Assembly: GCA_947629525.1 (NCBI GenBank)
Contig: CANREB010000009.1
Coordinates: forward strand, 1 to 64,000
DNA length: 64,000 nt
Direction: 5' to 3'
From: an uncultured Lachnospiraceae bacterium
Lineage (GTDB): Bacteria > Bacillota > Clostridia > Lachnospirales > Lachnospiraceae
Shown here: positions 5,747 to 64,000 of the stretch, piece by piece
Layout: the number at the start of each line of letters is the position of its first letter
Position numbering within the stretch: the stretch's first letter is position 1
Made by a program: the position numbers and the translations under genes
The notes under the pieces: model-generated
Told to the model about the DNA's origin: nothing
The model's input: only the letters and a program-made list of their open reading frames with translations
Database searches by the model: none

Positions 5747-7093
5747 TTATTCAATCTGAAGCATAATGCTCACAATCACTTCGCCTTCCCGCTGTTCAAA
5801 AGATACGTCTCCCATATATTTTCTTGCAACCCTGCGTATATTTTTCAATCCTATGCCATGTTCCCCGCTCTTTTTTGTTGTAAATGGCAGTCCGCTTTCC
5901 GAATCGATGTACAATTTACCCTGAAAGCTGTTTCGGATAATCAGCGTATATACACTGTTTTGGCGGAAGGAATATATCCTTATATACGGCTTATCTCCAT
6001 TTGCCGACTCCATACAATTATTGAGCGCATTATATAAAATAATGCTGAAGTCAAACGCATTCAGCTTCGTGTTTTCAGGATAATGGAAATCACAGCCGAA
6101 CGCGATTCCCGCTTTCTCGGCTTCTTTCTTCTTTTCCAGCAAAATGATATCGGTGACAGGATTGCCTGTTTTTAATTCGGGCGTAAGCTCTTTCCATTCA
6201 TCACTTAGCCTTTCCAAATATGCGCGGGTTTCCCCGCTGTTCTCAGTGCCGATAAGACGCTCCAATACCTGAATATGGTTTCCCATATCATGGCGTATGG
6301 AACGGATGTCGCTATAAAGCCTTTCCACCCCTTCAATGTGGATTTTCATATCATTTATCTGGCTTGCAATAAGCTCCCTGTCCGACTGTTCCTCCTGCGA
6401 TGTTTTCAGGCTTTGAAAAACAAAAATCATAACAAGGATTGCTGTTATAGATATGAGGTAATACAATATGCACAGTACATCATATATCCCCGCCATTCCG
6501 GATTTGACCTGATAAAACCTGAATATCGCGCTGCCAATCACCTCTGACAGCGACGGGACAATCAATAAAAGCAGCTCCCTTATTCCCATGTACCTGTTTT
6601 TGCTCTCATATGTCCTATTAACTGTCCTGACTGACAGATATAAAAAGAGCGTGCAGAGAAAGATATTTAAAATCCTTACTGACACATAGACTCCATACCA
6701 CAGCCATTCCATTGCCGCGATTTTCTCACTCATAATCAACGGCTCAAAAAAAAGACTGTCTATTTTCCCAGACAAGGCAGACGACAGCTCACATAAAGAA
6801 AAAAATGTAACCGAAAGGAAAATTTTCTGGTTTATATTTTTCCTGTCCTCTATGCACATTACGATAAAAACTGCCAATATGCCCGCAAAATAAGCAAAAA
6901 AGTTATTTACATGTACAGGCAGCCTATATAAGAAGACCATCACAGCCAAATAGACTATTCCGACACTGAAGGCTTTTTTCCGCTCCCACAAATAAGGCAA
7001 AACATATATAATCAGGCACGCTGCCACGAAAATAAGCTGGATAATATCCGCGGCATAAGATGTGCCGTTCCACCATAGCTCCAGTCGGCTCAT
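5747..7093 (-). CDS. GHKL-type sensor histidine kinase (AgrC/VirS-like)
   Basis: A 448-residue membrane kinase. The first half (about residues 15-230) has six or so hydrophobic segments, such as IIQLIFVAACLIIYVLPYL and YYLISITAILVMIFVF. The cytoplasmic half has the phospho-acceptor motif SIRHDMGNHIQ with His at about residue 268, an N-box (ILYNALNNCMESA) and a G-box (GEHGIGLKNIRR). This is the class that pairs with LytTR regulators and usually senses peptides or envelope signals. Its start codon overlaps the response regulator stop by 4 bp (ATGA), so the two are translationally coupled. No signal-peptide precursor gene is obvious nearby. Confidence 0.9.
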   Translation of the reverse strand: MSRLELWWNGTSYAADIIQLIFVAACLIIYVLPYLWERKKAFSVGIVYLAVMVFLYRLPVHVNNFFAYFAGILAVFIVMCIEDRKNINQKIFLSVTFFSLCELSSALSGKIDSLFFEPLIMSEKIAAMEWLWYGVYVSVRILNIFLCTLFLYLSVRTVNRTYESKNRYMGIRELLLLIVPSLSEVIGSAIFRFYQVKSGMAGIYDVLCILYYLISITAILVMIFVFQSLKTSQEEQSDRELIASQINDMKIHIEGVERLYSDIRSIRHDMGNHIQVLERLIGTENSGETRAYLERLSDEWKELTPELKTGNPVTDIILLEKKKEAEKAGIAFGCDFHYPENTKLNAFDFSIILYNALNNCMESANGDKPYIRIYSFRQNSVYTLIIRNSFQGKLYIDSESGLPFTTKKSGEHGIGLKNIRRVARKYMGDVSFEQREGEVIVSIMLQIE

Positions 7094-16815: not shown

Positions 16816-17688
16816 TCACATAAAATAAAACTCCGCTTTAAAAAAATTTTCGTTTTCCAACAGCAACGGAACATAATCAATGAGTAAGTCCATCAACCCT
16901 TTCGAATAATCATGATACTGTTCAAAATTTGCCTCATTTATACCGCCTCTCACCGCAACAAGACTTCGGGCTTGAATTGCCATATTATCAAGTTCCTGCA
17001 TAAAAGAGGAATAAGTTGCACTATTCTTTTGACTTGAAAACAATATTTCGCAATATGTTTTTATTTCCCAAAAAACATCAGGGTTATCCTCATATGCATG
17101 TTCTCTTGCCAATGGAATAGTCAAATCGTTGACTTTATAACTGTCACTTGCAATATGGTCTCCCAAAATATGAACATAATAAATTAAAGCACTAAAACTA
17201 TTACATTGTCCACAGACTTTTCCAAACAACTCATTCCCTAAGCCAAAATCAAAAACCTTATTAACAGTCGAACATAGTAGTTTCTTTCTTACCTGCCAGT
17301 TAGCTTTATCGTGTTTTTCGCCTTTCTGTATCGTATATACATAATTCCATCCTCGATGAGTATAATTTCGATGATTACCAAAGAAAATATCTGTTAAAGC
17401 AAATTCTTCAAGTTGGGGAAGATTTTTTACTTTCTGTTTTTTTAAAAATTTTAACTCATCTGCTCCTTTGCTTCCACATTGGTCTACGGCAAGATACGAA
17501 GCATATTCTAACATTTGTATTTTTTCCTTAATCGATTCCGTCTGTGAGTCCTTAAAATCACACGTTCCAAACAAAACCTGTTCCAAGTATGAATCATGTT
17601 CATCGGCATCGAACGCATACACTCGTATAGACAAAGTCGAAATAACCAAGATAACTACAATCGCAAAAGACACTATCCGCTTTGTCAT
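16816..17688 (-). CDS. Secreted protein, possibly zinc phospholipase C / nuclease P1-like
   Basis: A 290-residue protein with a classical signal peptide (positively charged MTKR, hydrophobic AIVVILVISTLS, cleavage near VYA-FD at about 25). The mature part has His31 near its new N-terminus, a His pair in GNHRNYTHRGWN (106 and 111) and YVHILGDHIASD (His173, Asp177, His178). The last resembles the HxxxD metal site of zinc-dependent phospholipase C and P1 nucleases, which also use an N-terminal metal ligand. I do not recognise the family firmly. Its ATG overlaps the lipoprotein stop by 4 bp, so the two are coupled. Confidence 0.7.
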   Translation of the reverse strand: MTKRIVSFAIVVILVISTLSIRVYAFDADEHDSYLEQVLFGTCDFKDSQTESIKEKIQMLEYASYLAVDQCGSKGADELKFLKKQKVKNLPQLEEFALTDIFFGNHRNYTHRGWNYVYTIQKGEKHDKANWQVRKKLLCSTVNKVFDFGLGNELFGKVCGQCNSFSALIYYVHILGDHIASDSYKVNDLTIPLAREHAYEDNPDVFWEIKTYCEILFSSQKNSATYSSFMQELDNMAIQARSLVAVRGGINEANFEQYHDYSKGLMDLLIDYVPLLLENENFFKAEFYFM

Positions 17689-19748
17689 TTTTCTGCCCTT
17701 TCAAATCGAACTCCGGGAATATACTTTCCTTTACCCACAACATCATATGTCAGTTCAATAACATTGTCAGGCAATTCGATTACCGGAATTATTTTGACTA
17801 TAACCTGCATTCCCTCAGAATACTTAAACTTATCCGCTGTTTTGCTTTCATAAGATGCCATAAAATCAGTATATTCAGCATTTTTCTTTCGCGTGACTTC
17901 ACTTATAGTCCAATCATCAAGTACAGTTTCGCTTCCTGCGTTATTTACTATCACACTGATTAATGAATTTAATGACATATATGATGCCGGAATATCAAGT
18001 TTCTCTCCGTTAAAAGATATATCGGTCTCATCAATTTTCAAATCTTCATTTTTATTGAACCAAAAACGTTCATCAATAAACTGCATTAAAAAAATAGGAT
18101 TTCCATTTTCATGTAAAATATTGTCAATTTCACTTTTTTCTTTTGACGATATATTTAATTCATCAGCCAGAGAAAACAGCAGGTCACAATTTAAATATAA
18201 AGCCTCACTAATAGGTGGAAGCGCCGTTTTCCGCTCTGCCTTTAACATTTTATTATATTGTTTGATTTCCTCTTTCTCGCGTTTTTCAGCATTTTGAGGT
18301 ACTTCTGTTTTAACTACGTCAGCAAGATACTTTTCATTCAAATCCTTCTGTTCGTCAATAAGATAATTTACATTGTCATACGCAATTTCATATGACTTTT
18401 CCGCATATTGTTTATCATTAGTACGCGCATACAAATCTAAATAAACCTGAGCAACATAATATGTAATCGTCCAATCCGTATTATCGCAATTATCTAAAAT
18501 AATTCCTGCATATCGTTCAGCAGTTTCCATATACTTGTCGTTTTCATAAACTTCGTTGGCAGCAATAATCCCAATGGCAAGCGCCTTTGCATAATCATAA
18601 TCCTTTCTGAAAATTCGAGATGATATCTCTTCATATTTTTTTATTGCATCTAAGCACTTTTCATATTCATTATACTCATAATAACTCTCTGCCAAAGTAA
18701 GCCAATATGTGCCAAATGCCTCATACGTTGACTGATTTGATTCCAAAAATGATATTCTGCGGGCAACATTGGTATTATTTTTCCATGTTACAAATTCCTG
18801 AACAGCATCTTCATTTAACGCATAATCACCCGGAATAGCATTGTCTCTAACCATGTTCATCATATAAGCAAACGCCTGTTTTCTACTGCTATGAAGCTCA
18901 GCAGCTTCCTCGTCATCCAGTTCCCATCCCTCTTGCAAATACTGCAAGTCAATCTGCTCAATATAATTTGAATAACTTGTGTATGAGTCAACTGCCATAT
19001 ATACTACTGAGGCAGCGGCTTTTAACAAATTTTTCGACTGCACAACATTAAGAACACTCATAGGACTTGGTATAGCCTGTTTAATAGCTTGAGCACGATT
19101 TTGCTCATAAATGTACGCCAAACGTTCGCGTTTTACATCCACCATCCGATATCCTTCAAGCGTGTCCAAAATATTTAGAAGCTGAGCCTGTGTCCTTGAA
19201 TCAACCGCATTGGGAAATGTATTATTCAATAAAGAAGAATAGGCATTTTCGATATATAGTCTGCTTCCCTTAGAAGCGTTTATTTCCTGAGTAAGAACCG
19301 TAATGAAATTCATCATATTAAGAGAATTTCTTTGAGTATCAGTCATACTGTCATTGGCATTAGCAGTGACATCTGTCTCTTTTGTCGGCTGTCCTGCAAT
19401 AATGTTTTCCTTTTCCGGCTCTTTAACGACGACAGATGAAGACGCGACAGTATAATCATCTTCTATTAGCTGTTCCACTGCGGTACTCTCCGCGCTTTGA
19501 CCGGTTATCGTTTCTGTTTCATATTCTTTGATATCAGAAGATGTCGTGACATCAGGGTCTGTATTTTCCTCAGTTTCTTCATCTAAAACCGTTTCCGTTA
19601 CGGAAGCAGACTCATCGTAAATATTTTCAGCCATAACCGCACTTGACTCATCAGATGTATCACTTTGTTCTCCGCATCCTGCTAAAGCCATCAGCACTAT
19701 ACCAATAAGGATTGACAAACTCAATAATCTGCGCTTTTTTTTATCCAT
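17685..19748 (-). CDS. Large lipoprotein of unknown function
   Basis: A 687-residue lipoprotein. The signal ends in the lipobox LAGC with Cys25 as the acylated residue. A Ser/Thr/Glu-rich linker (about residues 28-135) would span the cell wall. The rest is mostly helical and includes TPR-like stretches (YEAFGTYWLTLAESYYEYNE, KCLDAIKKYEEISS) and a beta-rich end (ISVIVNNAGSETVLDDWTI). No enzyme motif is visible, so a scaffold or binding role at the membrane surface is plausible. It is the first gene of an operon with the secreted protein, GNAT and radical SAM genes; the coupling to the next gene is an ATGA overlap. Confidence 0.8.
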   Translation of the reverse strand: MDKKKRRLLSLSILIGIVLMALAGCGEQSDTSDESSAVMAENIYDESASVTETVLDEETEENTDPDVTTSSDIKEYETETITGQSAESTAVEQLIEDDYTVASSSVVVKEPEKENIIAGQPTKETDVTANANDSMTDTQRNSLNMMNFITVLTQEINASKGSRLYIENAYSSLLNNTFPNAVDSRTQAQLLNILDTLEGYRMVDVKRERLAYIYEQNRAQAIKQAIPSPMSVLNVVQSKNLLKAAASVVYMAVDSYTSYSNYIEQIDLQYLQEGWELDDEEAAELHSSRKQAFAYMMNMVRDNAIPGDYALNEDAVQEFVTWKNNTNVARRISFLESNQSTYEAFGTYWLTLAESYYEYNEYEKCLDAIKKYEEISSRIFRKDYDYAKALAIGIIAANEVYENDKYMETAERYAGIILDNCDNTDWTITYYVAQVYLDLYARTNDKQYAEKSYEIAYDNVNYLIDEQKDLNEKYLADVVKTEVPQNAEKREKEEIKQYNKMLKAERKTALPPISEALYLNCDLLFSLADELNISSKEKSEIDNILHENGNPIFLMQFIDERFWFNKNEDLKIDETDISFNGEKLDIPASYMSLNSLISVIVNNAGSETVLDDWTISEVTRKKNAEYTDFMASYESKTADKFKYSEGMQVIVKIIPVIELPDNVIELTYDVVGKGKYIPGVRFERAEK

Positions 19749-56171: not shown

Positions 56172-57442
56172 TGCGCTTCACCCGCCTTTATCAAAGTTTT
56201 GCCGCTGTCCAGCATGCCGTCCTGATAGTCGCCTGCAGCCGTATTGCCCATGATCACGGTATTTTTACCTATCTTAACATTATCGGGTATTACCGTGTGA
56301 TCGCCTATCGTAACAAGCCCGCTGTTATAAATATCAGGTCTTGTGTCATTATCCTTCTCATCCATAAGCCCCAGCTCCACATTATCGCCTATCTGAGAAT
56401 ACTCGTCAATAATGGCTTTCTCGATAGTACACTTGCTGCCGATCTGAGCCTGATTCATTATGATCGAATTGCGTACAACAGTCCCCTCGCCTATCACAAC
56501 GCCGCAGCCTATGACTGAATTATAAGCCTGTCCGTATATTTCCGAACCTTCGCCTATTATACAGCGCTCGATAACGCTGTCCGATGAGACGAACTGCGGC
56601 GGAAGTATATCGCTCTTAGTATAAATCTTCCAATATTCCTCGTAAAGATTAAATTCCGGTACGATATCTATAAGCTCCATATTGGCTTCCCAATATGAAC
56701 TTAACGTCCCTACATCCTTCCAGTAGCCTGTAAATTCATATGAATACATCAGTACGCCGTTCTCATGGCAATAGGGAATGACATGTTTTCCAAAGTCAAG
56801 ATTTGGCTGGTCTGCTTTTGCTATCAGCGCCTCCTTAAGGGTCTTCCAGTTAAATATGTAAATACCCATAGACGCAAGATTGCTTCTTGGATTTTCGGGT
56901 TTCTCCTCAAAGTCGACTATTTTCTTGTTTTCATCCGTGATAACAATACCGAAACGCTTCGCTTCATCAAGCGGAACCGGCATAGCCGCTATCGTGACCT
57001 CGGAGCCGCTCTCCTTGTGGAAATCAAGCATCACTTCATAATCCATCTTATATATATGGTCGCCTGAGAGTATCAAAACATAATCGGGATTATATGTCTC
57101 CATATATTCGATATTCTGGAAAATGGCATTCGCCGTACCTGTATACCATTCACTCTCACCACTCTTCTCATATGGCGGAAGCACGGTAACTCCACCGATG
57201 TTCCTGTCAAGATCCCAAGGAATACCGATGCCGATATGCGTATTAAGCTTTAACGGCTGATACTGCGTAAGAACGCCGACTGTGTCAATGCCCGAATTGA
57301 TACAATTGCTTAAAGGGAAGTCTATTATCCTGTACTTGCCGCCAAAAGCAACCGCGGGCTTTGCCATTCTCGATGTCAGGACGCCCAGCCTCGAGCCCTG
57401 TCCACCTGCCAAAAGCATGGCAATCATCTCTTTTTTAATCAT
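56168..57442 (-). CDS. glgC: Glucose-1-phosphate adenylyltransferase catalytic subunit
   Basis: Makes ADP-glucose from glucose 1-phosphate and ATP, the first committed step of glycogen synthesis. Signatures are [34 protein letters not shown], the catalytic region [11 protein letters not shown] and [10 protein letters not shown], and the beta-helix C-terminus. Length 424 is normal. Its start has AGGAG upstream. Glycogen synthase and branching enzyme genes are not in the window. It is divergent from murC. Confidence 0.96.
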
Positions 57443-57495
57443 GTTGTCACTCCTATATTACATAATGCGATCATTGTATTTACAAACCCAAAATC

Positions 57496-57501
57496 ATTAT
57501 A
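57496..57501 (-). promoter_or_regulatory. Extended -10 of the glgC promoter
   Basis: The minus strand shows TGTTATAAT, an extended -10 (TG-N-TATAAT), about 55 bases before the glgC start. The -35 is weak. It probably drives glgC-glgD and perhaps spoVG. Confidence 0.45.
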
Positions 57502-57689
57502 ACATAAACTTTTTATAAATGGAACAATAAAATTTGGTTATTTTTAAATTTTATGGCAATTTTTAGAGGGTTTTTTTGGCTATTTTAACCATTGTTTTTT
57601 TTATACTATTTCAGTGGAAAATTTAACTGCTTAGGTGTATTATGGTATTATCTATGTATAAAATTATAAGAAAGGATCGTATTTTAGCC

Positions 57690-59066
57690 ATGTATCAGAT
57701 AAATTTCAGCGAACCCGTCTATGTCCACTTTATAGGAATAGGAGGAATAAGCATGTCGGGACTTGCGCAGATATTGATCAGTGCAGGTTTCACCGTAAGC
57801 GGTTCAGATGCAAAACGCTCGCCGCTGACGATCCGTCTTGAAGAAATGGGAGCAAAGATAGGCTATCCCCAAAGTGAGGAGAACATCACGGACGATATCG
57901 ACCTTGTAGTCTATACCGCCGCCATCAGTGAAGATAATCCCGAATATGCGGCGGCAGTGCATAAGAATATGCCTATGATGACACGCGCAGCTCTTTGGGG
58001 GCAGATCATGAAAAATTATAAGATCCCTATCGCCGTAAGCGGCACACATGGCAAGACTACCACCACATCGATGATATCGGAAGTGCTTCTTGCGGCAGAC
58101 ACCGATCCCACCTTATCGATAGGCGGTATATTAAAATCGATAAGCGGCAATATACGCATCGGCAAATCCGAATACTTCGTAACTGAAGCGTGCGAATATA
58201 CTAACTCATTTTTGAGTTTTTTCCCACGCATAAGCATCATACTTAATATAGAAGAAGACCATCTTGATTTCTTTAAGGATATCAACGATATACGCAATTC
58301 ATTCAGAAAATTTGCCGAGCTTCTTCCCGAGGACGGCACACTTATCATAAACGGCAATATCGACTCTCTTTCCGAGATCACAGAGGGACTTAAATGCCAA
58401 GTGATAAGCTTCGGCAATGATAAATCCAAATACAGTTATACAGATGCCTCATACGATGAAATGGGACGCGCGTCATACACGCTCCTGGAAAACGGCACTG
58501 CGACTATGAGAGTTTCGCTGGGAGTAGTCGGTGAGCACAATATCCTGAACTCACTCGCCGTCATCGCACTGGGTGATATCCTCGGACTGGATCGCGGCAC
58601 CGTGTTAAATACTCTTGCAGGTTTTCATGGCACTGACAGGCGTTTTGAGCTCAAAGGAACGCTTGGGGGCATAACGATATTTGACGACTATGCCCACCAT
58701 CCGACGGAAATCACAGCTACTTTAAAGGCTGCCGCAAAATACCCTCACAAACGTATTTGGTGTGTGTTCCAGCCGCATACGTATACAAGGACAAAAGCGT
58801 TTTTAAAAGACTTTGCCAAAGCGCTCTCACTCGCAGATCATGTAATACTCACGGATATATACGCTGCGCGTGAAAAGAACACTATCGGCATATCGTCTCT
58901 CGACCTTAAGGCGGAACTTGACAGCCTTGGAACAGAATGTGAATATTTCAAAAGTTTTGATGCAGTTGAAAATTTTTTACTGGAAAATTGTATCGACGGC
59001 GATTTGTTGATAACCATGGGCGCAGGAGATGTCGTAAAAATAGGTGAAAATCTTCTCGGAGCATAA
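57690..59066 (+). CDS. murC: UDP-N-acetylmuramate--L-alanine ligase
   Basis: Adds L-alanine to UDP-MurNAc, starting the stem peptide of peptidoglycan. The N-terminal domain begins YVHFIGIGGISMSGLAQIL; the ATP loop is VSGTHGKTTTTSMI, followed by EACEYTNSFL, LNIEEDHLDFF, and the ligase C-domain DDYAHHPTEI. 458 residues. I start at MYQINF, as in relatives, although its spacing from AAAGGA (13 bases) is long; an earlier ATG adds 12-16 residues. It is divergent from glgC. Confidence 0.95.
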   Translation: MYQINFSEPVYVHFIGIGGISMSGLAQILISAGFTVSGSDAKRSPLTIRLEEMGAKIGYPQSEENITDDIDLVVYTAAISEDNPEYAAAVHKNMPMMTRAALWGQIMKNYKIPIAVSGTHGKTTTTSMISEVLLAADTDPTLSIGGILKSISGNIRIGKSEYFVTEACEYTNSFLSFFPRISIILNIEEDHLDFFKDINDIRNSFRKFAELLPEDGTLIINGNIDSLSEITEGLKCQVISFGNDKSKYSYTDASYDEMGRASYTLLENGTATMRVSLGVVGEHNILNSLAVIALGDILGLDRGTVLNTLAGFHGTDRRFELKGTLGGITIFDDYAHHPTEITATLKAAAKYPHKRIWCVFQPHTYTRTKAFLKDFAKALSLADHVILTDIYAAREKNTIGISSLDLKAELDSLGTECEYFKSFDAVENFLLENCIDGDLLITMGAGDVVKIGENLLGA

Positions 59067-59084
59067 TTATCCACAATATCCACA
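59067..59084 (+). promoter_or_regulatory. Two adjacent DnaA-box-like 9-mers after murC
   Basis: TTATCCACA (59067-59075), a perfect DnaA box, is directly followed by ATATCCACA (59076-59084). Both point the same way. The second also forms the left arm of the murC terminator. Confidence 0.7.
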
Positions 59085-59130
59085 TTTTTTTGAAGTCATT
59101 TTGACGAAAAAAAGTGTGGATATTTTTTTA
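59076..59130 (+). terminator. Terminator of murC built on DnaA-box-like arms
   Basis: ATATCCACATTTTTTT (from 59076) pairs with AAAAAAAGTGTGGATAT (ending 59123), with one bulge and a GAAGTCATTTTGACG loop. A run of T follows. The arms are the 9-mer ATATCCACA and its complement, so the same sequence could bind DnaA in duplex DNA. Confidence 0.65.
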
Positions 59131-59209
59131 TTTCTTCCACATTGGCGATAATTAAACTCCACTTGTTATTAATGTTGACCTTCAAGGGATTGAGTTTTTT
59201 ATTTAACCC

Positions 59210-59260
59210 CTGTCCACAATATCCACACTATCCACAGGCGCTTCCTCACCTGTTTCCACA
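59210..59260 (+). promoter_or_regulatory. DnaA-box-like array upstream of dnaD
   Basis: Three contiguous 9-mers, CTGTCCACA (59210-59218), ATATCCACA (59219-59227) and CTATCCACA (59228-59236), lie head to tail with exact 9-bp period, and TTTCCACA follows at 59253-59260. They sit 24 bp upstream of the probable -35 of the dnaD operon, so DnaA could couple primosome gene expression to replication. The gap contains no gene. Confidence 0.65.
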
Positions 59261-59283
59261 AGGCTTTCAAGGCTGCGGGGGAC

Positions 59284-59311
59284 TTGCTTTTTTGGTCAGG
59301 TATGATAAAAT
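59284..59311 (+). promoter_or_regulatory. Probable promoter of the dnaD-dnaI-prs operon
   Basis: TTGCTT (59284-59289), a 16-base spacer and TAAAAT (59306-59311), with TG one base before the -10 (extended -10). It lies just downstream of the DnaA-box-like array and gives a leader of about 80 nt. Confidence 0.5.
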
Positions 59312-59395
59312 ACATATACCACATATAAATTGTCCTAAGGCTTCACAGGCTGAGGGCACATTTACATGAAATATTAACAGGACAGGTGAAAAACT

Positions 59396-60445
59396 ATGAA
59401 TCGCGTCAACATTTATCGTTCAGCTTCCAAAAATCAGACTTCCGTGCCGAACTTATTTATTGACGAATATATGAAAGATGCAAACGATGCACAGGTCAAA
59501 ATCTATCTTTTCCTTATCCGCATGATGAACGCAGACCTTCCCACAAGTGTCACGGATATCGCGGACAAGTTTAATTATACGGAAAAAGATGTACTGCGCG
59601 CGCTTATGTACTGGGAGTCAAAACAGCTTCTTAGCCTTGACTATGATGCTTCAAACAATTTAACAGGCATCCAGATACTGCCTGTCGAATGCCTTGGCGA
59701 GCAGCAGCGCGCATCGGAACGTATAACTCCTGTCCTGCCTTTTGCCGCTCAGGAGCCTGAAAAGCCTGTAAAAGCGCCTATCTCTGCATCGGACAAGCCT
59801 GCGTATTCTCTTGACGAGCTGAAAGCTTTCAGAAACAATGAAGAGATCGAGCAGCTCCTTATGGTGACAGAGCAGTATATAGGCAAACCGCTTACGCGCA
59901 ACGATATTGAAACTATATTTTTCATGTATGACCGCCTCGGCTTTTCGACTGACCTTATAGACTATCTCGTACAGCACTGCGTGGAACACGGCAAAAAAAG
60001 TTTACGTTATATGGAAAAAGTCGCGCTCTCATGGCATGAGCAGGGAATAATATCCCCGGAAGACGCGAAAAACTCATCGCGTAAACACGATAAGATCGTC
60101 TACAGCATTATGAAATCGCTCGGCAAAACGTCAGATCCCGCTCCAAAGGAGCTTGAATACATAAATAAATGGACTGAGGAGTACGGCTTTTTGCTCGATG
60201 TAATACAGGAAGCGTGTGACAAGACAGTTATGACTACGGACTCCCACCGTTTCGCATATGCCGACGGCATACTGAGCAAGTGGTACAAAGCCGGGGTGCA
60301 TTCAAAGGCTGACATTCCGCTCGCCGACTCTTCATACAGGCGCAGCGCACAGCCACAGGTAAAAAATACAAAAAACAAATTTAACAATTTTTCGCAGAAT
60401 AATTACGATTTTGAAAAATTGGAAAAAAATATACTCAGCAACTAA
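59396..60445 (+). CDS. DnaD-domain primosome protein
   Basis: A 349-residue protein of the DnaB/DnaD family that remodels DNA and helps load the replicative helicase in Firmicutes. The N-terminal winged helix (about residues 15-100) includes DANDAQVKIYLFLIRMMN and DIADKFNYTEKDVLRALMYW. Two DnaD-like (DnaB_2) domains follow (about 135-205 with LLMVTEQYIGKPLTRNDIET, and 215-300 with YINKWTEEYGFLLDVIQEAC). The C-terminal tail is Asn/Lys-rich, typical of a DNA-binding extension. First gene of an operon with the helicase loader and prs. Confidence 0.92.
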   Translation: MNRVNIYRSASKNQTSVPNLFIDEYMKDANDAQVKIYLFLIRMMNADLPTSVTDIADKFNYTEKDVLRALMYWESKQLLSLDYDASNNLTGIQILPVECLGEQQRASERITPVLPFAAQEPEKPVKAPISASDKPAYSLDELKAFRNNEEIEQLLMVTEQYIGKPLTRNDIETIFFMYDRLGFSTDLIDYLVQHCVEHGKKSLRYMEKVALSWHEQGIISPEDAKNSSRKHDKIVYSIMKSLGKTSDPAPKELEYINKWTEEYGFLLDVIQEACDKTVMTTDSHRFAYADGILSKWYKAGVHSKADIPLADSSYRRSAQPQVKNTKNKFNNFSQNNYDFEKLEKNILSN

Positions 60446-60459
60446 AAGTGAGGTAAAAA

Positions 60460-61425
60460 ATGCGGCTTACGAACAGCCAGTATGATAGTATAATGCGCTC
60501 CTACGAAGAAAGGCGGCGCATATCAAGACAGACATTGGAAGACAGGACGCGCCTGATATATGAGAAAATCCCGGAATACGAGGAACTCGACAGGCGCATA
60601 GCTTCCTTTTCCATAGAAAATGTGCGCCTTCTGCTAAGCGGCACAGGCGCTTCACCCGACGAATTAAAAAAAGAAATAAGAAAATTATCCGCGCGAAAAT
60701 CCGCTCTTCTCACCCAAAACGGTTATCCCGCGGATTTTCTGGCGCCCGTATATAAATGCAGCAGGTGCCGCGACACAGGATATATCGGCGAAGACAAGTG
60801 TTCATGCTTTAAAGCTGCCGAAATCGACCTTATATATGAACAGTCGCACATAAAAAATCTGCTCCTTACCGAAAATTTTTCACAGCTTTCATATGACTAT
60901 TATGACGGAGATGACCTTGAAAAATTTACAAAAGCTGTGCAAATATGCCAAAATTTTATAGAAAATTTTGACAAAGACTACCATAATCTGTTTTTTTATG
61001 GTACAGTAGGTACTGGTAAGTCGTTTTTGTCATGCTGTGTCGCCAAGGAGCTTATAGACAGGGGGCATCTTGTTATATATTTAAGTTCCACACAGCTTTT
61101 TGAGGCATTTTCAAAAGATATGCGCGGCAAAGACAATCCCGACGCGGCATCCGGCATATCGGAAGATATATACGGCTGCGACCTTTTGATAATAGACGAC
61201 TTGGGAACCGAAATTCCCAGTTCATTTGTTTCATCCCAGCTTTTTTCCTGTCTTAACAACAGGATTTTGAGGGAGAAATCGACGATCATAAACACTAACA
61301 TTTCACTGGAGGAACTACGCAGCAGATATTCCGACAGAATATTTTCCCGCATAATGGGCTACTATGATGTGTGTAAACTTACAGGGAACGATATTCGCAT
61401 GAAAAAGAAAACGAACAGAAAGTGA
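60460..61425 (+). CDS. dnaI: Helicase loader, DnaI/DnaC-type AAA+ ATPase
   Basis: A 321-residue ATPase. The N-terminal region contains a zinc-binding cluster YKCSRCRDTGYIGEDKCSCF (about residues 97-116) that in DnaI contacts the helicase. The AAA+ module has Walker A FYGTVGTGKSFLS, Walker B LLIIDDLGTE and sensor region KSTIINTNISLEELRSRYSD with the Arg finger in RIFSRIMG. It follows dnaD by 14 bp. The symbol is by family and context; IstB-type proteins share the fold but lack the zinc cluster. Confidence 0.9.
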   Translation: MRLTNSQYDSIMRSYEERRRISRQTLEDRTRLIYEKIPEYEELDRRIASFSIENVRLLLSGTGASPDELKKEIRKLSARKSALLTQNGYPADFLAPVYKCSRCRDTGYIGEDKCSCFKAAEIDLIYEQSHIKNLLLTENFSQLSYDYYDGDDLEKFTKAVQICQNFIENFDKDYHNLFFYGTVGTGKSFLSCCVAKELIDRGHLVIYLSSTQLFEAFSKDMRGKDNPDAASGISEDIYGCDLLIIDDLGTEIPSSFVSSQLFSCLNNRILREKSTIINTNISLEELRSRYSDRIFSRIMGYYDVCKLTGNDIRMKKKTNRK

Positions 61426-61435
61426 GGATTTTTCC

Positions 61436-62620
61436 ATGTCAAGACGTGAGGAAAAAAGGAACCTTAATTCAATACCCGTAGGATCACTTGGCATCATTCC
61501 GATGCAAAGCTGTACGGAACTTGGAGACCGCGTTGACGAATATCTTGTAAAATGGAGAACCGAGCGCGAAAACGAGCACAAAGACTCGCTTGCCTTTTCG
61601 GGCTATCAGCGCGATTCATATATCTTAAAAACAAAAGTACCGCGTTTCGGCACGGGAGAGGCTAAGGGTATCATCCTTGAGTCTGTCCGCGGATATGATC
61701 TGTATATACTTGTCGATGTGACTAACTACAGTCTTTCATATTCACTGTGCGGTCACGAAAACCATATGTCGCCCGACGACCACTATCAGGATTTGAAACG
61801 CATCATTGCCGCGGTGGGAGGCAAAGCACGCCGTATAACGGTCATTATGCCGTTTCTGTATGAGAGCCGCCAGCATAAAAGAACAGCGCGTGAGTCGCTT
61901 GACTGTGCACTCGCATTACAGGAAATGGTCAGGATGGGCGTTGATAATTTTATTACATTTGACGCGCATGACCCAAGAGTGCAGAACGCTATCCCTCTCA
62001 ACGGTTTTGAAACGATACAGCCTACGTACCAGTTTATCAAGGGACTTTTAAATCATGTACCCGACCTTACCATCGACGCGGAGCATATGATGGTTGTAAG
62101 CCCGGATGAGGGTGGTATGAGCCGTGCCATATATATGGCTAACGTCATGGGTCTTGACATGGGTATGTTCTACAAAAGACGCGACTACACACGTATAGTA
62201 GACGGACGAAATCCAATAGTGGCGCATGAATTTCTTGGCAGCAATATAGCAGGCAAGGACATCATCATCGTTGACGATATGATCTCATCAGGGGACAGCG
62301 TGCTTGAAGTAGCCGCCGACTTAAAAAAGCGCAAAGCTAAACGCATTTTCATCGCGTCTACATTCGGTCTTTTCACCGGCGGATTAAAGAAATTTGACGA
62401 AGCGTTCAGAGATGGCACGATATACAGAATACTTACCACCAATCTTATATACCAGATGCCCGAACTGCTTAAGAAGGATTGGTATATAAGCTGCGATATG
62501 AGCAAATACATCGCATATATAATAGACACTCTCAACCACGATTCATCCATAAGCGATCTGCTCAATCCAAATGACAGGATACACAATATCATCCAAAGAT
62601 ATAAAGACGGAAAACTATAA
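61436..62620 (+). CDS. prs: Ribose-phosphate pyrophosphokinase, long divergent form
   Basis: Makes PRPP from ribose 5-phosphate and ATP for nucleotide, His and Trp synthesis. The PRPP loop is IIIVDDMISSGDSV, and other sites are DAHDPRVQNA and MVVSPDEGGMSRA. At 394 residues it is about 75 longer than canonical Prs, and the usual DLHxxQIQGFF and DDMxDTxGT motifs are altered, so it belongs to a divergent clostridial class. It is 10 bp after dnaI and shares its transcript. Confidence 0.9.
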   Translation: MSRREEKRNLNSIPVGSLGIIPMQSCTELGDRVDEYLVKWRTERENEHKDSLAFSGYQRDSYILKTKVPRFGTGEAKGIILESVRGYDLYILVDVTNYSLSYSLCGHENHMSPDDHYQDLKRIIAAVGGKARRITVIMPFLYESRQHKRTARESLDCALALQEMVRMGVDNFITFDAHDPRVQNAIPLNGFETIQPTYQFIKGLLNHVPDLTIDAEHMMVVSPDEGGMSRAIYMANVMGLDMGMFYKRRDYTRIVDGRNPIVAHEFLGSNIAGKDIIIVDDMISSGDSVLEVAADLKKRKAKRIFIASTFGLFTGGLKKFDEAFRDGTIYRILTTNLIYQMPELLKKDWYISCDMSKYIAYIIDTLNHDSSISDLLNPNDRIHNIIQRYKDGKL

Positions 62621-62634
62621 ATCCGTGCACATAC

Positions 62635-62662
62635 AAAGAGGCGCTCAGGGCGCCTCTTTTGT
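62635..62662. terminator. Terminator between prs and galE
   Basis: AAAGAGGCGC (62635-62644) pairs perfectly with GCGCCTCTTT (62650-62659); a T-rich tract follows on the plus strand. It serves prs and, less strongly, the convergent galE. Confidence 0.88.
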
Positions 62663-62678
62663 TTTCTTTTTTTCTGTT

Positions 62679-63695
62679 TCAGCCGTCATAACCGTTGGGG
62701 TTATTTGACTGCCATCTCCAGCTGTCCGCACACATATCCTTGATATCGTACTGCGCTGTCCATCCAAGCTCTTTTCTTGCCTTTGACGCGTCAGCATAGC
62801 AGGTTGCTATATCGCCCGCACGTCTCGGCTTGATCTCATAAGGTATCTTTACCCCTGTAGCTTCCTCAAAGTTTTTCACTATATCAAGCACGCTGTAGCC
62901 CTTACCCGTACCAAGGTTATAGATGCACAGCCCTGCTTTCTCTTCGATCTTCTTGAGCGCCTTGACATGACCTATCGCAAGGTCAACAACATGGATATAG
63001 TCTCTCACGCCTGTTCCGTCAGGTGTGTCATAATCATTACCGAATACCCCCAGCTTCTCAAGCTTGCCGACTGCTACCTGCGTTATATACGGCATAAGAT
63101 TGTTGGGAATGCCGTTAGGGTTCTCACCCATCGTACCGCTCTTATGCGCCCCTATCGGATTAAAGTAGCGCAGCAGGATAACATTCCACTCGGGATCAGC
63201 CTTCTGCATATCGGATAATATCTGCTCAAGCATGGATTTCGTCCAGCCATACGGGTTGGTGCACTGTCCTTTGGGGCACTCCTCCGTTATAGGTATGAAT
63301 GCCGGATCTCCGTAAACCGTCGCGGACGATGAAAAGATAATATTCTTGCAGTTATGCTTTCTCATAACATCTACAAGTGTAAGTGTCCCCGCGATATTAT
63401 TGTTATAATACTCCCACGGCTTGACAACAGATTCGCCTACAGCCTTAAGTCCCGCAAAATGTATGCAGGAATCTATCTTCTCTTTTGAAAAAATTTTCTC
63501 AAGCGCTTCTCTGTCAAGTATATCCGCCTTGTAAAAAGTGACCGGTTTCCCCGTTATCTTCTCTACGCGCTGAAGCGACTTAGCGCTCGCGTTTGACAGG
63601 TTATCGATCACAACCACGTCATATCCCGCATTCTGAAGTTCAACCACAGTATGGCTTCCTATAAAACCCGCGCCGCCTGTTACCAAAATTGCCAT
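62679..63695 (-). CDS. galE: UDP-glucose 4-epimerase
   Basis: Interconverts UDP-glucose and UDP-galactose, feeding galactose use and surface polysaccharide. The NAD-binding motif is [16 protein letters not shown], the catalytic Ser-Tyr-Lys set lies in SSSATVYG and [10 protein letters not shown], and [12 protein letters not shown] is conserved. Length 338 is standard. No gal or leloir partner genes are adjacent. The sequence upstream, to the window edge, holds a cluster of DnaA-box-like 9-mers. Confidence 0.96.
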
Positions 63696-63783
63696 AGACC
63701 TTACCTCCGTTAAATCGTTATCATTTACATATCTATATCATATATCTTTTGGAAAAATAAAACAATAGTCAAATTCAAAAATC

Positions 63784-63954
63784 TGTGGATATTGTGAATA
63801 AAAGTGTGGATATTGTCTGACAATTTAAAGTTAGCGACATGTTATCCACACAGTGATTTCTGCCTTTAAAGTCCCTTGAAACAGGACTTTTTTTATTATG
63901 ACACCGCTGTCATTATCCACAATCGGTCTGCGCTCTGCCACGAGGTTTTCCACA
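63784..63954. promoter_or_regulatory. Second cluster of DnaA-box-like 9-mers, upstream of galE
   Basis: On the plus strand TTATCCACA is perfect at 63842-63850 and 63913-63921, with TTTTCCACA at 63946-63954. On the minus strand ATATCCACA lies at 63784-63792 and 63805-63813, with TTATTCACA at 63793-63801. Six sites in 171 bp, in both orientations and in AT-rich DNA, form a probable DnaA binding region. Nothing else is recognisable in the last 305 bases. Confidence 0.7.
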
Positions 63955-64000
63955 ATTTTTGCCGTGTTTTTTGAGGCGACAGATGTGTCACATGTAAAAA

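Follow-up and report, generated by a model that had tools for sequence, protein, structure and literature searches.

Two dense clusters of DnaA boxes lie 4.7 kb apart towards the right end of the window (the whole 64,000-nucleotide stretch of contig C9 analysed here), one between murC and dnaD and the other upstream of galE. In relatives this locus is not a replication origin, and both clusters are probably non-origin DnaA-box clusters of the kind found in Bacillus subtilis, which would act on free DnaA, on nearby promoters, or on both. The interest of the locus rests mainly on the murC–dnaD cluster, whose geometry is kept across nearly all of the family Lachnospiraceae.

The clusters flank a short run of genes. 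On the forward strand murC (57642–59066) is followed by genes for a DnaD/DnaB-like primosomal protein with a PF07261 domain (59396–60445), a DnaC/DnaI-like helicase loader with an IstB/DnaA-type AAA+ domain (60460–61425) and a prs-like ribose-phosphate pyrophosphokinase (61436–62620); a galE-like UDP-glucose 4-epimerase gene, whose product is mostly 90–98% identical in congeners, lies on the reverse strand (62679–63695). Upstream of galE, the sequence-only reading had placed six DnaA boxes on both strands at 63784–63954, two of them perfect TTATCCACA and the others near matches, in AT-rich non-coding DNA. All six sites were confirmed as stated, each of the four near matches carrying a single mismatch, and the base composition agrees, with 35% GC from the galE start to the window end and 40% in the core of the cluster. 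This core comprises the first four boxes: ATATCCACA (63784–63792, reverse strand), conserved in the genus; TTATTCACA (63793–63801, reverse), which abuts it; a second ATATCCACA (63805–63813, reverse); and a perfect TTATCCACA (63842–63850, forward), placed 37 bp from the third box in nearly all congeners. The orientation is thus - - - +, with spacings of 9, 12 and 37 bp. The other perfect TTATCCACA (63913–63921, forward) and a box-like TTTTCCACA (63946–63954, forward) lie outside the core and are not kept in congeners. A chance origin is ruled out by 300 dinucleotide-preserving shuffles of the whole window, in which the densest 171 bp held one to three boxes and never six. The cluster begins 19 bp upstream of the -35 element of a probable galE promoter, recognised by eye on the reverse strand (63737–63765; -35 TTGTTT at 63765–63760, a 17-bp spacer, -10 TATGAT at 63742–63737). 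In alignment an ACAATAG motif and the -10 region of this putative promoter recur in many congeners; the promoter is absent from the list produced by a consensus promoter scan.

The murC–dnaD cluster, equally dense and missed in the sequence-only reading, occupies positions 59067–59236 of the intergenic region. It opens directly after the murC stop codon with an abutting pair, TTATCCACA-ATATCCACA (59067–59084, forward), continues with a reverse-strand ATATCCACA (59115–59123) and closes with three abutting forward boxes, CTGTCCACA (two mismatches), ATATCCACA and CTATCCACA (59210–59236). A further box at 59005 was left out, as it lies inside the murC coding region and the family-wide conservation of its place was put down to protein coding. 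Among 97 loci, from Lachnospiraceae and including the window, the murC–dnaD intergenic region has on average 5.5 boxes, where shuffles have 0.13, and box density there reaches 18.2 per kb compared with 0.49 elsewhere in the same loci. The arrangement is as regular as the count: measured from the murC stop codon, abutting forward boxes stand at +3 and +12 (a pair kept in most of the 97 loci), a reverse box near +51, often joined by another near +72, and then two or three abutting forward boxes that start between +90 and +170 in most family loci; beyond them the consensus shows a TATAAT-like element. The forward boxes that immediately follow murC also recur in nearly all of another 31 loci of the family, which come almost entirely from different genera. 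Two loci are without the cluster (L271 of genome G053 and L020 of G017), one having a boxless gap of 348 bp and the other a gap of only 72 bp. In other families of the class, all 33 genomes examined have at most one box within 500 bp upstream of dnaD, and no murC neighbour of dnaD was detected in any of them. The murC–dnaD cluster is a family-level feature tied to the murC–dnaD junction. Both clusters are conserved beyond their surroundings, this one nearly family-wide and the galE core within the genus.

At the scale of the genome, perfect boxes are threefold enriched (54, against 18 for the backwards control). In the window, consensus and near-consensus boxes group away from oriC more densely than chance would allow. 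The abutting pair TTATCCACA-ATATCCACA links the two clusters: allowing up to two mismatches, a whole-genome search finds it in five places, three in the murC–dnaD cluster (two of them overlapping), one in the galE cluster and one on contig C4, while with up to three mismatches there are 19 matches against three for the backwards control. As the search relied on this pair, clusters elsewhere in the genome that are devoid of it may have been missed.

Clusters of this general kind are already known. B. subtilis has six extra-oriC box clusters, the deletion of which causes early initiation (PMC13220808), and several of them are sites at which DnaA controls transcription (PMC4447404). They lie at sda/yqeG, ywlC, ywcI/vpr, yydA, trmE and gcp/ydiF (PMC4447404, PMC13220808). 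The window clusters resemble them as groups of near-consensus boxes that occupy intergenic DNA at a distance from oriC, in part beside promoters; the B. subtilis clusters bind DnaA and affect both initiation timing and transcription, and for those of the window such binding is predicted. The genes concerned differ, being murC/dnaD and galE here, and none of the strong B. subtilis regions consulted in PMC4447404 is at dnaD, dnaB or dnaI. Further differences are the head-to-tail abutting boxes at 9-bp spacing, the geometry fixed across a family and the inclusion of terminator arms in one of the two clusters. In Escherichia coli, one non-origin locus, datA, works with IHF. A likeness of function to datA, DARS1 and DARS2, which lie away from the origin and govern how much DnaA there is or what state it is in (PMC13220808), may be supposed for the window clusters.

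If the window clusters do act as their B. subtilis counterparts, cooperative binding of DnaA to the fixed four-box core ahead of the galE promoter would be expected. By analogy, the galE cluster would then sequester DnaA, especially once the locus has been replicated, and the bound protein could also alter transcription from the promoter 19 bp away. The murC–dnaD cluster would act likewise upstream of the helicase-loader operon and could tie loader expression to free DnaA. Since its place before this operon is invariable, feedback on initiation is attractive as a hypothesis. A more specific proposal, tentative and on balance doubtful, makes the murC–dnaD cluster a Lachnospiraceae-specific DnaA sensor and the galE cluster a more recent element, of genus level, that bears the same signature of abutting boxes. 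The family-wide cluster would form a rigid nucleoprotein platform, part of it doubling as the murC terminator, and this platform would set the level of the DnaD–DnaC helicase loader according to free DnaA, closing a feedback loop on initiation.

The distribution of the galE cluster is much narrower. About 18 of 30 congener galE loci carry the core or part of it upstream of the gene and 12 carry none, and no box cluster was found upstream of galE in any of the 29 other genera of the family examined; the cluster is limited to one genus. In a tree of MurC, DnaD, DnaC and Prs its absences group in clades (L149, L150, L152 and L154; L155, L157 and L158; and L166), a grouping that suggests loss, so that the cluster seems to have disappeared several times within the genus; L153, L156 and L165 are marked as negative on this tree only because galE lay outside the stretch examined. 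Confined to a genus and apparently lost repeatedly, it would therefore be dispensable, a point against the preferred reading, that of non-origin clusters acting on free DnaA or nearby promoters. These data bear on the idea that the galE cluster serves galE alone, as a dedicated operator through which DnaA would tie sugar-nucleotide supply to the replication cycle, and has no part in titration. Such an operator would suit a position upstream of the probable promoter, and the boxes do stay with the gene when it is elsewhere, which fits the preferred reading as well: in L151 and L164 the gap between prs and galE is wider by about 2 and 6 kb, with the boxes still immediately upstream of galE, although in L164 their arrangement is partly different. 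Yet among congeners the first core box lies anywhere between 88 and 345 bp from galE while the spacing inside the core stays fixed, which argues against a classical operator at the galE promoter, and galE genes without boxes are frequent in the genus and universal among the other genera examined. We therefore regard a dedicated operator as improbable, and the variable distance would favour a DnaA-binding module. The same variability also tells against the promoter-directed side of the preferred reading.

A further point against that preferred reading is that part of the murC–dnaD cluster coincides with a conserved hairpin (59075–59124, forward strand), in which the second box and the reverse box form the base, followed by an inner stem and a T-tract. 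The inner stem varies among species yet remains paired, with 5.9 of 7 positions matched on average compared with 3.9 (largest value 4.3) when arms are swapped between sequences. This covarying hairpin is probably the murC terminator. One could accordingly imagine that the boxes in general are by-products of RNA hairpins serving as transcription terminators and not DnaA sites. This holds for two boxes of the murC–dnaD cluster and not for the remaining ones: the first box and the downstream triplet have no hairpin partner and keep the TCCACA core nearly as strictly, positions 4–9 of the DnaA consensus being retained in roughly 88–97 of 97 sequences, where the triplet was placed by best match, which somewhat favours the consensus. 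No conserved inner stem stands out clearly in the galE cluster, with 4.25 of 7 positions paired against 3.80 with swapped arms in only eight sequences. A known RNA element was likewise rejected, no Rfam match being found in 57000–64000. Hairpin by-products are thus a very unlikely source of the clusters as a whole.

Least credible of all is the suggestion, made in the sequence-only reading, that the galE cluster flanks the chromosomal oriC on its left; it draws on the dense boxes, the AT-rich intergenic DNA and a cumulative GC skew on contig C9 that is lowest at 63962, and it fails on the position of dnaA and on the skew of relatives. The next 5 kb, where dnaA, dnaN and rpmH were to be looked for, are cut short as the contig ends at 64077, 77 bp past the window. 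The only strong DnaA match of the genome lies on contig C13 (17966–18457, within dnaA at 17432–18796), the weaker Bac_DnaA match on contig C9 (60934–61353) being the DnaC-like loader and not dnaA. As dnaA is at least 17 kb from both ends of contig C13, it cannot lie within 5 kb to the right of the window. Around it, neighbours identified by reading translations and sequence are those of a bacterial origin, with gyrA, gyrB, recF, dnaN and dnaA on one side and rnpA and rpmH on the other. Six boxes precede dnaA and another three lie about its 3' end and the start of dnaN, and the skew has a local minimum at 17.1 kb. The window clusters share with this oriC dense perfect and near-perfect boxes in AT-rich intergenic DNA, at 36–37% GC compared with 22% in the dnaA–dnaN gap of contig C13, but unlike it they adjoin neither dnaA, dnaN nor rpmH (the nearest genes being galE, prs, the dnaC-like gene, dnaD and murC) nor, judged from relatives, lie at a skew switch. 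A scan for DnaA-trios found none at the window clusters and none at the C13 oriC either, and so had no power.

The skew minimum at the window edge proved to be no more than a steady downward trend that the end of the contig interrupts: it falls at the right end because skew is negative over most of contig C9, rising towards zero at 58–62 kb, where the murC–prs operon runs opposite to most genes on its left. Nor does skew change sign at the dnaD locus in the two relatives in which it was followed. Over the 410 kb of contig C15 sampled in the congener G069, skew is mostly positive to the left and right of the locus and dips at the operon, and in the closed Lachnospiraceae genome AP018536 it is negative in every stretch sampled from 2.2 to 3.9 Mb; there the dnaD locus lies at 3.29 of 4.08 Mb and dnaA at 0.4 kb, about 0.79 Mb apart. 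A dense DnaA-box cluster at the GC-skew low point of a contig need not, then, be an origin. Of the broader proposal of an origin or DnaA-titration locus, the origin falls away, and a putative titration or regulatory locus stays the best reading.

Control of DnaA activity is poorly known in clostridia; for Clostridioides difficile, PMC7561715 reports that homologues of YabA, Rok, Hda and several further regulators of DnaA have not been identified. Lying ahead of the helicase-loader operon, the murC–dnaD cluster offers a concrete candidate for control of this kind in a dominant family of the gut, and the galE cluster is a relative of it with narrower distribution. Within a limited literature search, what is new here is the locations of the clusters and their family-wide fixed geometry. 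That search returned no work on DnaA boxes with the replication origin in Lachnospiraceae, none tying DnaA boxes to a DnaD or helicase-loader promoter in Clostridium and, among the matches listed, none linking DnaA boxes to galE.

Three minor observations concern other sites. Three perfect boxes fall within 1.9 kb on contig C3 of the same genome (G000:C3:71117-73012), in or beside a glycosyltransferase-like coding sequence, and do not form a tight cluster. On contig C4 (111.8 kb), the locus L167 (G000:C4:95000-107000) has a box cluster at locus positions 6185–6362 with an abutting pair like those of the window, in a stretch with few long open reading frames, where nearby ones read as NrdD, NrdG and dUTPase. 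For a 262-aa open reading frame about 1.2 kb from the cluster, neither a Pfam family above the cut-off nor a PHROGs family nor a plasmid match was obtained; the cluster may serve as origin to a plasmid or phage-like element. Finally, a strong hairpin, GGAACCGGCA/TGCCGGTTCC, with T-runs on its flanks, stands at the very end of contig C9 (63998–64030, partly past the window) and probably terminates a gene lying on its right.
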